Virus record (IMG/VR): IMGVR_UViG_3300021961_000392
Location: 1 to 30,957 of that record
Direction: 5' to 3' (one strand)
DNA from: a virus
DNA: 30,957 nt
Part shown: piece by piece, positions 16,585 to 20,021 of the stretch
How positions within the stretch are numbered: position 1 is the stretch's first letter
How the letters are laid out: each line of letters opens with the position of its first letter
Translations under genes and position numbers: made by a program
Notes under the pieces: model-generated
Told to the model about the DNA's origin: nothing
Seen by the model: the letters and a program-made list of their open reading frames with translations, nothing else
Database searches by the model: none

Positions 16585-18621
16585 ATGTCAGCACAACAAA
16601 TAGCCACTACCTTGGGCAATGCCAAGAAGGTAGGCAATGGTTACCTAGCAAGTTGTCCAGTACCTCACCACGGTCAGGGCAATGGCGACAAGAACCCAAG
16701 TCTTTCAGTGACAGATGGTGACGATGGCAATGTACTTTTTAAGTGCCACGGTGGGTGCGATCAGCAAGAGGTCTTCAACACCATCAAGGATATGGGACTT
16801 CTCCCACAGCTACCAGACAGACCAGAATACCTCTCAAATGTTAGACCTATCATGCCAGCAATACCAGTTTTAGAGCATGAATGGTTCTACACAGATGAAA
16901 ACGAGATGCCCTTGTTCGTGAAGCAAAGGTACAAGACCTTTGATGCCAAGGGAAAGACCTATAAGACGCTCAGAATCTTGCCTGATGGCAGTCGGGTTGG
17001 GAAGCTAGGAGATTGCAGAATTGTCCCCTACCGACTCCCCGAGCTGCTTCAGGCGGTTACCAATGGGAAGGTGGTCTACATAGCCGAGGGTGAAAAGGCG
17101 GTAGATGCCTTGTGCAGCTTGGGGGTCACGGCTACCACCTCACACGCTGGCGCAGGAGGTTGGAATCAAGACTTGAACCAATACTTTGATGGCGCAAATG
17201 TCGTTGTTGTGCCTGATAACGATGTCGCTGGTTGGGCTTATGCCGACAAGATTGTCGAATCCTTACTGCCTGTGGTCAAAACCATCAGGGTTTTGGATTT
17301 GGGGTTGGACAAGCCAAAGGAAGACGCTTACGAGTTTGTTCACCAATATGGCGGTACAAAGGAAACACTAGCTGCCAAAGCCAAGGGCGCAAAGGTTTTG
17401 GGGCATGAGGATGTCATCTTGATACCCAAAAGACTGAGAGAGACACCACCACCTGACCCTTTCCTCTCCCACGCCAACGAGCCAAAGCTAGAGCAATCAA
17501 GCACCAGAAAGAAGTTATTGGTCGAGTCTTGGGACTCCATTAAGGATGAACCAGTGGAATGGCTGGTGGAGTCGATAGTCCCAAAGAAAGGATTTGTAGC
17601 CCTGTACGCACCCCCTGCCTCGTACAAGTCATTCATCTCGCTTGACCTAGCTGAAGCCATAGCCACAGGTCGGGATTGGATGGGCTACAAAATACCCAAG
17701 AAAGGGGCTGTGCTGTACATCTGCGGTGAAGGGCATGGCGGTATGGGTGCAAGGGTGAAGGCTTGCAAGATACAGAATAAGAGTCCTGATGGGGTGAATC
17801 TGTACATCATCAGGGCGCAATTGAACCTCAGATCGTCACCAGAAGACTTTGCGGAGTTGTTGAATGCCATCAACGAGTTGATTGCTGAGATAGATGAACC
17901 CTTGGAACTCATCATCTTGGACACCCTGATGCGGATGTCTGGCGGTGGCTTTAACGAGAACTCATCCGAGGACATGGGTGGGTTCATCACCCAAGCAGGG
18001 AAGCTTCAGGAAATCTTTGAGTGTGCCTTGATGGTGATTCACCATAGCGGTAAGGATGTCACCAAGGGTCTTAGAGGTCATAGTTCGCTGCTTGGGGCAG
18101 TGGATACAGAACTTGAGATTCAAAGGCAAGATTCTGTCATCAATTCAGGGGATTCAGCCGTAATAGGTAACGCAATCCTGACAGTCAGCAAACAAAAAGA
18201 TGGGGCTGACTCCATCCAGATCGGCATTGAGATCGTACTGGTGGAGATTGGAACATCAGATTTAGGCTTTGAAATCAACACTTCACTGGCGATTAGGCAT
18301 AACCAAGAGATTGCTGGGAGTAACTCTAAAGGTAGTAAAAACAATGCGGGTAGCGGTAAAAATCAACGGTTGGAGATGGATTCGTTGATGAAGGTTATTA
18401 AATCTAAAGGCTCATACCGTGAAGTGGATGGTACTAGTCGGTATGGCGTGAGTTTGGAGGATTGGAGGGCTGAATTTTGGTCTATGAAGGGCTGCACCGA
18501 GGAGGATAAAACCACTTTCAAGGTAGCTTGGCTTCGTGCTAGAGAGAGGTTGGTAGCCATAAATAAGGTCGTGATTGGGTCTGGTTGGGTGTGGTTGAAG
18601 TCGAGTTCGGAAAACTTCTGA
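16585..18621 (+). CDS. Primase-helicase (zinc ribbon, TOPRIM, RepA-like ATPase)
   Basis: 678 aa. N-terminal zinc ribbon: Cys24, His28/29, Cys54, Cys58. TOPRIM domain: VVYIAEGEKAVDAL (Glu168/170) and VVVPDNDVAGW (Asp211/213). ATPase: Walker A APPASYKS (342-349), Walker B LIILD (442-446) and a VIHHSGKD sensor (484-491). The C-terminal region (SRYGVSLEDWRAEFW) looks like a winged helix that could bind origin DNA. It combines primer synthesis and unwinding in one protein, as in T7 gp4 and P4 alpha-like systems. The start at 16585 has only weak GGAT upstream. A repeat cluster follows directly. Confidence 0.88.
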   Translation: MSAQQIATTLGNAKKVGNGYLASCPVPHHGQGNGDKNPSLSVTDGDDGNVLFKCHGGCDQQEVFNTIKDMGLLPQLPDRPEYLSNVRPIMPAIPVLEHEWFYTDENEMPLFVKQRYKTFDAKGKTYKTLRILPDGSRVGKLGDCRIVPYRLPELLQAVTNGKVVYIAEGEKAVDALCSLGVTATTSHAGAGGWNQDLNQYFDGANVVVVPDNDVAGWAYADKIVESLLPVVKTIRVLDLGLDKPKEDAYEFVHQYGGTKETLAAKAKGAKVLGHEDVILIPKRLRETPPPDPFLSHANEPKLEQSSTRKKLLVESWDSIKDEPVEWLVESIVPKKGFVALYAPPASYKSFISLDLAEAIATGRDWMGYKIPKKGAVLYICGEGHGGMGARVKACKIQNKSPDGVNLYIIRAQLNLRSSPEDFAELLNAINELIAEIDEPLELIILDTLMRMSGGGFNENSSEDMGGFITQAGKLQEIFECALMVIHHSGKDVTKGLRGHSSLLGAVDTELEIQRQDSVINSGDSAVIGNAILTVSKQKDGADSIQIGIEIVLVEIGTSDLGFEINTSLAIRHNQEIAGSNSKGSKNNAGSGKNQRLEMDSLMKVIKSKGSYREVDGTSRYGVSLEDWRAEFWSMKGCTEEDKTTFKVAWLRARERLVAINKVVIGSGWVWLKSSSENF

Positions 18622-18637
18622 TATGTGTTTTTATCCA

Positions 18638-18747
18638 GTAACAAACGATACAAACGGTAACAAAGTAACTTTTGTTACTCCCGAGGAGATGGTTACAAAC
18701 CACCTCGGGTCTATGTACCCGAGGTTTGTTACCTGTCACTTTGTAAC
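18638..18747. repeat. Cluster of GTAACAAA-type repeats (iteron or operator array)
   Basis: Consensus GTWACAAAS. Forward copies start at 18638, 18647 (variant GATACAAAC) and 18657, spaced nine and ten bases, and at 18692. Inverted copies lie at 18669-18678, 18724-18732 and 18739-18747. GTAACAAA/TTTGTTAC forms a dyad at 18657-18678, and CCCGAGG/CCTCGGG arms fold the middle (18680-18726). This is far beyond chance for 110 bases. It is either an initiator-binding origin or a multi-site operator over the promoter of the next gene. Confidence 0.75.
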
Positions 18748-18755
18748 TTTATAAA
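18727..18755 (+). promoter_or_regulatory. Promoter inside the repeat cluster
   Basis: -35 TTGTTA (18727-18732), spacer of 17 bases, -10 TATAAA (18750-18755). One inverted GTAACAAAC copy covers the -35, and another (CTTTGTAAC, 18739-18747) fills the spacer, so a protein bound there should block it. AAGGG at 18762-18766 provides the SD for the next gene. Confidence 0.6.
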
Positions 18756-18774
18756 TTTTATAAGGGAAATAAAA

Positions 18775-19401
18775 ATGAGTCGATCTAGGTCAAGAAGAGA
18801 AGTACCCCAAGTTGAGGTCAAGAGGTATGAGCCAACTATTTGGGATATTGAGGCAAGTGCTTGCCTCACCGAATTGGAGGTGAGAAAGGAGCAACATCAT
18901 CAGAAATGGGGTTGCGAGAGATTGATTACTTTAGTTGACACGGTATTTAGGGAGAGGTTTTGGGTGCAGATGGCTAGGGTTTGGGATGCCACTGATGCCA
19001 AGGATATTGAGAGACTGAGGAAGGCGGTCTACGGCATGGTCAAAGGGTACGATGCTTTGGAAGCATGGGCAGTGGACAATGGAGTTCCACAAAACCCACC
19101 CATCAGGTTTTTGGAGTGGAAAACTTTGGATGGGAAAATCATGGCAGTTGTCCAGACCGTCAACGAAAGCCTAGACTTGCAGCGAGAACGCAAAGACCTG
19201 AATTGGATTTGGACACTGGAAGAGTTTGAGATTGTCTTGGCTGACCCATTGGTGCAAGAGATCATGGCGATTAAAGCACTCGACCCCACCGCACAAGTCA
19301 AGATGTTCAAGAAAGGTGAATCAGGGTTTGAAGACATGGAAGACGACCTCCATGTTTTGGAGGGTGAGCCAGCACCTAAACTTTTCAATGTGCCGAGGTG
19401 A
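18775..19401 (+). CDS. Phage protein of unknown function behind the repeat array
   Basis: 208 aa. A basic N-terminus (MSRSRSRREVPQVEVKR) is followed by a helical body (RLITLVDTVFRERFWVQMAR, then RLRKAVYGMVKGYDALEAWA) and an acidic C-terminal part (GFEDMEDDLHVLEGEPAPK). No cysteine cluster, membrane part or catalytic motif. Its promoter lies in the GTAACAAA cluster, so it may be autoregulated or under replication control. The basic start could contact DNA. Not recognised as any family. Confidence 0.7.
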   Translation: MSRSRSRREVPQVEVKRYEPTIWDIEASACLTELEVRKEQHHQKWGCERLITLVDTVFRERFWVQMARVWDATDAKDIERLRKAVYGMVKGYDALEAWAVDNGVPQNPPIRFLEWKTLDGKIMAVVQTVNESLDLQRERKDLNWIWTLEEFEIVLADPLVQEIMAIKALDPTAQVKMFKKGESGFEDMEDDLHVLEGEPAPKLFNVPR

Positions 19402-19796: not shown

Positions 19797-19839
19797 TTAT
19801 CCACAGGTTATCCACAGATTTGGATCGAAGTTATCCACA
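19797..19839 (+). promoter_or_regulatory. Three perfect DnaA boxes
   Basis: TTATCCACA occurs at 19797-19805, 19808-19816 and 19831-19839, all on the same strand. The first two start 11 bases apart, one helical turn, as in oriC arrays. TTATCCACA is the strongest binding sequence of DnaA. Confidence 0.85.
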
Positions 19840-19876
19840 ATTGCCCCAACTGGTTTCAATTTGCGTCTCAATTGCT

Positions 19877-19998
19877 GTGCGTTTGTAATGCTTTCTTTGA
19901 TTTTGAGTTAACATAATGGACATCGTGTTAAATGGATTTTGTAAGTTATCTGTAAGTTGCAGAGAATGTCTAATGAAATCAACAACTTACAAACGCAC
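19877..19998. repeat. 12-bp perfect inverted repeat around an AT-rich segment
   Basis: GTGCGTTTGTAA at 19877-19888 and its exact complement TTACAAACGCAC at 19987-19998. The enclosed 98 bases are AT-rich and include two TGTAAGTT copies and GTTAAC. Position between DnaA boxes three and four suggests an unwinding element or a second initiator site. Confidence 0.65.
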
Positions 19999-20012
19999 AT
20001 CTGCAAACTGAG

Positions 20013-20021
20013 TTATCCACA
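20013..20021 (+). promoter_or_regulatory. Fourth perfect DnaA box
   Basis: TTATCCACA, same orientation as the three boxes 174 or more bases upstream, on the other side of the AT-rich inverted repeat. Confidence 0.8.

Follow-up and report, generated by a model that had tools for sequence, protein, structure and literature searches.

In the SaPI Rep/ori and SCCmec Cch2 systems, the C-terminal domain of the helicase recognizes iterons that lie directly 3′ of its own gene, and the Cch2 helicase is related to the D5 family (PMC7581432, in the portion of that paper available). Joint change of a DNA-binding domain and its origin has been described for PLE RepA, where the two covary, are swapped as a module and have had their specificity tested, and where the Odn nuclease is the likely selecting agent for the swaps (available sections of PMC8263062). 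PLE RepA is a RepA_N initiator for which the accessible part of PMC7145576 predicts neither primase nor helicase activity.

The locus considered here lies in an IMG/VR virus record of 30,957 bases with terminase, portal, head and tail genes on board; we refer to this whole stretch of DNA as the window. It encodes a primase–helicase whose gene is followed directly by an array of short repeats (Table 1). As in SaPI Rep and Cch2, a helicase C-terminus is paired with iterons directly downstream of the gene, but the helicase here is of the RSF1010 RepA type and carries its putative primase in the same chain (compared with the available portion of PMC7581432). As in P4 alpha/ori, a single chain would hold a TOPRIM-type primase (here putative), a helicase and a winged helix that binds the origin repeats (PMC4234260, sections available). 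With RSF1010, in which RepA, RepB′ and RepC are found together with the ssiA and ssiB sites of oriV, the locus shares a RepA-type helicase, iterons and a nearby stem–loop; RSF1010, however, uses three separate proteins, whereas here there is one chain and the hairpin sits within the iteron array (PMC4234260, same sections). In pRN1 ORF904 and Bordetella phage BIP-1, a primase–helicase–winged helix arrangement likewise has a stem–loop origin directly 3′, but with an AEP primase, an SF3 helicase, a large stem–loop and, as far as the accessible text of PMC4234260 goes, no iterons. The nearest precedent for a swap of domain together with origin is PLE RepA and its origin (PMC8263062, in part). Unlike PLE, a satellite with few types, the present locus combines a full primase–helicase with many switches and a visible rule relating residue to base. 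A literature search, in which most subscription papers were beyond reach, returned no published description of the array or of this rule.

In our view the array is likely to be an iteron-type origin, either whole or just its initiator-binding half, and to be read by the primase–helicase encoded upstream. By analogy, our best reading is that the locus may work in the manner of P4 alpha, SaPI Rep and RSF1010 RepABC, though its helicase is of the SF4 type.

The repeat array

Seven copies of GTWACAAAS with at most one mismatch fall within 18638–18747 (18638+, 18647+, 18657+, 18670−, 18692+, 18724− and 18739−), in agreement with the earlier note, which had counted at least seven in these 110 bases and had described three tandem copies at nine- to ten-base spacing; the starts of the latter are indeed 9 and 10 bases apart. 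Exact GTWACAAA occurs six times in the 30,957-base window, against 2.94 (sd 1.84) expected, and all six lie within 18638–18747. The array begins 17 bases past the helicase stop codon, and its make-up is that of an iteron origin, a short word being directly repeated several times in noncoding DNA that adjoins the gene of the putative initiator. As a possible AT-rich unwinding element, TTTATAAATTTTATAA lies 3′ of the array in the window. The dyads proposed earlier, GTAACAAA/TTTGTTAC and ACCTCGGGT/ACCCGAGGT, were both found. The proposal of CCCGAGG arms stood in part: two copies are present (18680 and 18718), and the one at 18718 is a pairing arm in relatives, but the copy at 18680 is not kept as a hairpin partner, as judged on the relatives listed.

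Table 1. Positions of features in the window
Feature	Position	Strand	Basis or remark
Primase–helicase gene, 678 aa	16585..18621	+	Pfam AAA_25; RSF1010 RepA profile and fold
Winged-helix domain, residues 592–671, candidate origin-binding domain	18358..18597	+	AlphaFold pLDDT 80; structure matches
Predicted recognition helix, residues 639–658	18499..18558	+	DSSP of full-length model, H639–658
K646 codon	18520–18522	+	Third helix of predicted winged helix
V647 codon	18523–18525	+	Third helix of predicted winged helix
Iteron word 1, GTAACAAA	18638..18645	+	Exact GTWACAAA
Iteron word 2, GATACAAA; nine-base form GATACAAAC	18647..18654	+	One mismatch
Iteron word 3, GTAACAAA	18657..18664	+	Exact GTWACAAA
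Iteron word 4, GTAACAAA, inverted	18671..18678	−	Exact GTWACAAA
Iteron word 5, GTTACAAA, 5′ flank of hairpin	18692..18699	+	Exact match, dyad search
Hairpin ACCTCGGGT-CTATGT-ACCCGAGGT, 9-bp stem, between words 5 and 6	18702..18725	.	
GTCTA in hairpin	18709–18713		
Iteron word 6, GTAACAAA, inverted, 3′ flank of hairpin	18725..18732	−	Exact match, dyad search
Iteron word 7, GTTACAAA, inverted	18740..18747	−	Exact GTWACAAA
Gene after array, 208 aa	18775..19401	+	Rejected as reader of words
Four perfect DnaA boxes TTATCCACA, possible partner site	19797, 19808, 19831, 20013 (19797..20021)	+	Noncoding stretch

The primase–helicase and its predicted winged helix

The middle part of the 678-residue protein matches Pfam AAA_25 (4.8e-36), as do all 31 of the 31 family members. 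RSF1010 RepA is matched both by profile (1g8y, E 1.2e-6) and by fold comparison (1olo, Z 19.9, rmsd 3.3, 227 aligned), and the domain is accordingly a RepA-related RecA fold of the kind found in the RSF1010 RepA-type (SF4) hexameric helicases. With respect to the N-terminal half, matches were obtained to PHROG DNA primase/helicase families. Toprim_2 was matched weakly in 15 of 31 members at E ≤ 1 (best 0.0034), CHC2 weakly in 9 of 31 at the same threshold (best E 0.049), and Toprim in 7 of 31 (best 0.0009), which weakly suggests a primase-like N-terminal part with Zn-finger-like and TOPRIM-like segments; a CHC2 zinc finger and a TOPRIM domain are the marks of DnaG/T7 gp4-type primases.

The C-terminus, over its last 80–100 residues, is predicted to form a winged helix, the model of which resembles CRP/FNR, MukE/F, ORC and VIA structures (Z 8–9). 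A PDB sequence search with the C-terminal profile yielded nothing useful (best E 0.63). On the fold of the predicted model, the protein thus shares the C-terminal winged helix of P4 alpha and SaPI Rep. The P4 alpha helicase belongs to SF3, whereas the helicase here is of the RepA/SF4 kind. Because it has the RecA fold of the RepA type and is not of the SF3/D5 type, we do not class the protein as a member of the P4 alpha/SaPI Rep group, and speak of it as working like them. The primase of RSF1010 is of another type.

Related loci and change of the word

A first scan with the helicase returned 80 loci (designated by L numbers), among which, for those listed, an array follows the stop codon in nearly all, with a differing word. 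A scan with the 208-residue downstream protein gave 14 loci, and a search of viral contigs for a 17-letter word hit 35 stretches, including one on the contig of L002; a scan of the genome contigs collection matched 143 stretches and no relative among them. Adding further loci to those of the first scan gave 292, of which 274 were used (11 lacked a stop, 6 had fewer than 120 nt downstream and 1 was short) and 122 were distinct. Across these 122, with few exceptions, the slot after the helicase gene holds the same kind of array. Repeats directly 3′ of the gene are what define an origin of the SaPI type in the available part of PMC7581432, and that is the placement found.

The letters of the word, by comparison, vary widely: GTAACAAA, GTTACAAA, GGGACAAA, TGGACAAA, CTTACAAA, GCGACAAA and even ATCAGAA occur among the relatives. 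The window and L002 (a 98% relative) have GTAACAAA/GTTACAAA, L003 and L004 (91%) have GGGACAAA/GAGACAAA, one further clade has TGGACAAA/CGGACAAA, and a clade 51% identical has GTTACAAA or GTAACAAA again. Within one array all copies obey the same rule, meaning that the word has changed in concert. Lack of repeat conservation in relatives was to have counted against a functional array. In the event, the array, its place and the hairpin are kept, but the letters differ even at 91% identity; since they vary together with the protein, that test had to be reworded.

Residue 647 and the third base of the word

Helicase residue 647 is tracked by the third base, which immediately precedes ACAAA. This base is G in 380 of 412 words with K647 and in 8 of 9 with Q647, A in 89 of 109 with M647, and T in 97 of 126 with T647; for V647, the residue of the window, A is found 51 times and T 11 times in 62 words. 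These counts include background NNNACAAA matches. Nine loci with fewer than three ACAAA words (L174, L177, L181, L182, L185, L187, L189, L330 and L332) were omitted from the tree and the column tests, leaving 113. For the third base, column 647 was the best of all 678 helicase columns (AMI 0.844, 2 errors in 113 loci), with the runner-up at 0.661 and 26 errors. Its two errors, as read from the group lists, are L002, with an A/T tie, and L207, with few words. A further exception is L181, which has K647 but a CGTTAC word.

The residue–word rule was written down from the C-termini of the first scan, before further loci were fetched. Clustering of C-termini at 70% gave 12 clusters, 8 of them without first-scan loci, and the rule for residue 647 holds in all eight. 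On a quick tree built from helicase residues 1–572, which excludes the C-terminus and has SH-aLRT support only, a minimum of 22 changes is required for the third base and of 25 for residue 647. Among the supported independent pairs, base and residue were concordant in 7 of 7 that differ as G versus A/T (p ~0.016); in those that differ as A versus T, concordance averaged 7.3 of 8 with none opposed (p ~0.016). The repeat and the predicted DNA-reading tip of the protein vary jointly, almost one residue to one base.

Evidence for the first base is thinner. K or R at 646 goes with G and Q with T or C, while S never goes with G, but only three independent pairs are available and the association is not significant. 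A simple rule for 646 is broken in L159, L337 and L184, where D646 or N646 accompanies a word beginning with G. A natural contrast is offered by L195 (K646, GTTACAAA) and L335 (N646, CTTACAAA).

Both neighboring proteins were also considered as readers of the word and rejected. The best column of the 208-residue downstream protein, which has no match in Pfam or PHROG, reached AMI 0.50 with 31 errors in 107, whereas helicase residue 647, on those 107 rows, scored 0.84 with 2 errors; the upstream neighbor does not track the word either. The ORF preceding the helicase in the window encodes 196 residues, and at its place L013 and L157 have a long ORF whose beginning resembles that of a C5 cytosine methyltransferase.

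The C-terminal domain adjoins the array, and linkage alone therefore suffices to tie other C-terminal columns to the word. Contact is thus argued solely by how column 647 ranks, by the near pairs and by the independent pairs, which together point to the C-terminal winged helix as the part that binds the words; this is our firmest inference, and we hold it to be very probable. The earlier note had suggested an iteron-type origin serving the winged-helix end of the protein, and this suggestion is strongly supported by the predicted winged helix and by the tracking of the third base by residue 647.

Exchange of the C-terminal domain together with the array

Identity between L062 and L159 in 100-column bins is 81–94% from −1200 to −400, 51–64% from −300 to +200, and 90–97% from +200 to +600. 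The same drop is seen between L062 and L174, down to 40%, and between L160 and L174, down to 31%, where the low stretch extends to +300. L174 and its kin have a different C-terminal domain and the ATCAGAA word, with a hairpin (CGAGAGTCTAGAAGACTCG) retained. These profiles indicate that C-terminal domain and array are swapped as a single cassette in several near relatives.

Cassette exchange, together with the association of several C-terminal columns with the word, could also be accounted for by hitchhiking, with domain and array merely traveling together and the words being read by another protein or by none. Nonetheless, we regard this as very improbable. Residue 647 outranks all other columns, eight new C-terminal clusters follow the rule, and an array lacking a reader would not be expected to keep its words in concert. 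Moreover, the window and L004 show no cassette-level drop (73–94% in most bins and 73–79% at the array), so word and helix were altered within one domain, and in L195 and L335 they likewise differ without a cassette-level fall in identity.

Possible promoter and operator

The array lies 5′ of the next gene, for which the earlier note had seen a good promoter among the repeats. This promoter did not survive scrutiny: a consensus scan of 18400–19000 on the + strand found none, and what a looser scan found was weak and not conserved, with a score of 9 of 12 for the window and L002, where the match overlaps words, 8 for L003, L004, L006 and L041, and 7 or nothing for L062 and L060. TATAAA or TATAAT occurs in that stretch in just 17 of 122 distinct arrays. 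A multi-site operator, at which the winged helix or a small phage repressor would bind the words and switch the next gene while replication starts elsewhere, is in our estimation quite unlikely, given also that neither of the two flanking genes examined tracks the word, and it commands less support than an iteron origin. Self-regulation of the helicase operon is unlikely as well, since the array lies behind the helicase gene and no exact word occurs elsewhere in the window.

The hairpin between the inverted words

Folded as single-stranded DNA, the hairpin region has an energy of −13.4 kcal/mol (z −4.2), and none of 200 shuffles was as good. In the clade of the window there are 11 distinct 9-bp stems, in which pairs 4, 6 and 7 vary and are always complementary; the 11 were chosen as perfect stems, so it is their variation and not their pairing that counts as evidence. 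The loop in this clade has TAT constant at three positions. Compensatory changes of this type speak against a plain dyad operator, the letters of which would stay conserved, and the covariation argues for use of the hairpin as single-stranded or cruciform DNA, or as RNA. A search for structured RNA at the array gave no Rfam match. A stem–loop near iterons with its structure kept is also what characterizes the ssi sites of an RSF1010-like oriV, and such an element is present here.

Within the stretch read, 107 of 122 arrays have a GTCTA-containing hairpin. Six of the 15 others (L008, L009, L012, L019, L020 and L048) have two successive arrays of one word class 3′ of the helicase stop, the second at or beyond the end of the stretch; L026, L208 and six L267-type loci have a hairpin or dyad minus GTCTA, and L183 has no hairpin or dyad in the stretch read. 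T7 primase reads GTC, and GTCTA in the loop was considered as a primase site and set aside, the window containing 38 copies against 37.4 expected; because the motif is not enriched in the window, its constancy is only suggestive in this respect.

A GC-rich stem right behind a gene could also be the ordinary transcription terminator of the helicase gene. We consider this unlikely. No terminator was called on the + strand, what follows the stem is no T run but TTTGTTACC in the window and TTTGTCTCC or similar in relatives, and a terminator requires neither a fixed GTCTA nor inverted words at its flanks.

DnaA boxes as a second site

The earlier note had remarked on two origin-like sites in one phage, and both are borne out by the relatives. 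The DnaA cluster at 19797–20021 lies 1.1 kb downstream of the array, and of the 46 distinct relatives whose downstream DNA extends for 1,700 nt or more, all 46 have at least two perfect TTATCCACA boxes between +1000 and +1700. These boxes are constant while the word changes. GC skew shows no switch at the array and gave no origin signal. DnaA boxes can serve plasmid-type origins beside iterons, and P4 crr is a copy-control element. With the boxes so widely kept, it is possible, though we do not favor it, that the DnaA cluster is the main origin and the iteron array an accessory for helicase loading or for copy control like P4 crr; only the array, on the other hand, has initiator-matched specificity and a covarying hairpin. 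The array as origin and the DnaA cluster as main origin may both be true together, and the two sites may make up a single composite origin or two separate ones. That the array is an origin or the initiator-binding part of one remains our preferred reading, and we judge it probable.

A doubtful but attractive extension would give these phages two start sites, a constant one for host DnaA and one typed by an exchangeable cassette of domain and iterons that is repeatedly re-typed under pressure. If so, re-typing would proceed by swap or by single-residue change, the pressure could come from, for example, origin-directed nucleases, satellites or competing phages, and the origin type could be read from the protein sequence through a simple residue-to-base rule.

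Proposed mechanism and its consequences

Comparison of the loci supplies the starting points for a mechanism, namely an array kept in its place, a word and a helix that change in concert, cassettes that are exchanged and a hairpin that covaries. In terms of recognition, helix 639–658 of the winged helix (~592–671) would sit in the 5′ half of each word, where residue 647 would read the base that precedes ACAAA, probably with help from residue 646 at the first base. Several monomers, sitting on the phased direct words and on the inverted pair around the hairpin, could then assemble the RepA-type helicase ring on the DNA, and the hairpin, extruded or exposed as a single strand, may provide an entry or priming site. 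Helicase loading and hairpin priming are modeled here on RSF1010, P4, SaPI and pRN1 (available parts of PMC4234260 and PMC7581432).

If the array is such an origin, uncultivated phages would gain a predictable replication origin together with its cognate initiator, and the loci would form a large natural series of matched domain–origin pairs, in which a single recognition-helix residue matches a single base. It would become directly testable how an SF4-type helicase with its own origin-binding domain in the same chain is loaded, how a replicon survives a change of origin specificity, and what lies behind rapid re-typing in phages. Our results also suggest a way of spotting origins in metagenomic data, by an array of words directly 3′ of a gene for a primase–helicase with a C-terminal winged helix.

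Occurrence in other phages

Among public phage records with related helicases, an array was found in 2 of 9 and none in 7 of 9. Rhizobium phage 16-3 has the same helicase type with a different N-terminal half, and its helicase is followed by 14 CGTGACA copies, with inverted words on either side of a hairpin. This array (L283 3602–3958, record 56250–56606) is 3′ of p101, and we regard it as a candidate origin of a cultivated phage. Eight loci found with the 16-3 protein, 16-3 itself among them, have CGTGACA, CCAGACA, GGGACAA or CCATACA as words. In our own helix alignment of this group, three sequence types pair Q or K at the equivalent of 647 with G, and alanine is seen with either G or T. In RHph_N65, 12 copies of GCGGAGA stand at the same place, again with a hairpin (CCCCTATATAGGGG) between inverted words. 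Finally, L009 and L069 are one 41-kb contig (IMGVR_UViG_3300028025_001978) bearing two different primase–helicase copies, each with an array, which may reflect either mixed assembly or genuine duplication.
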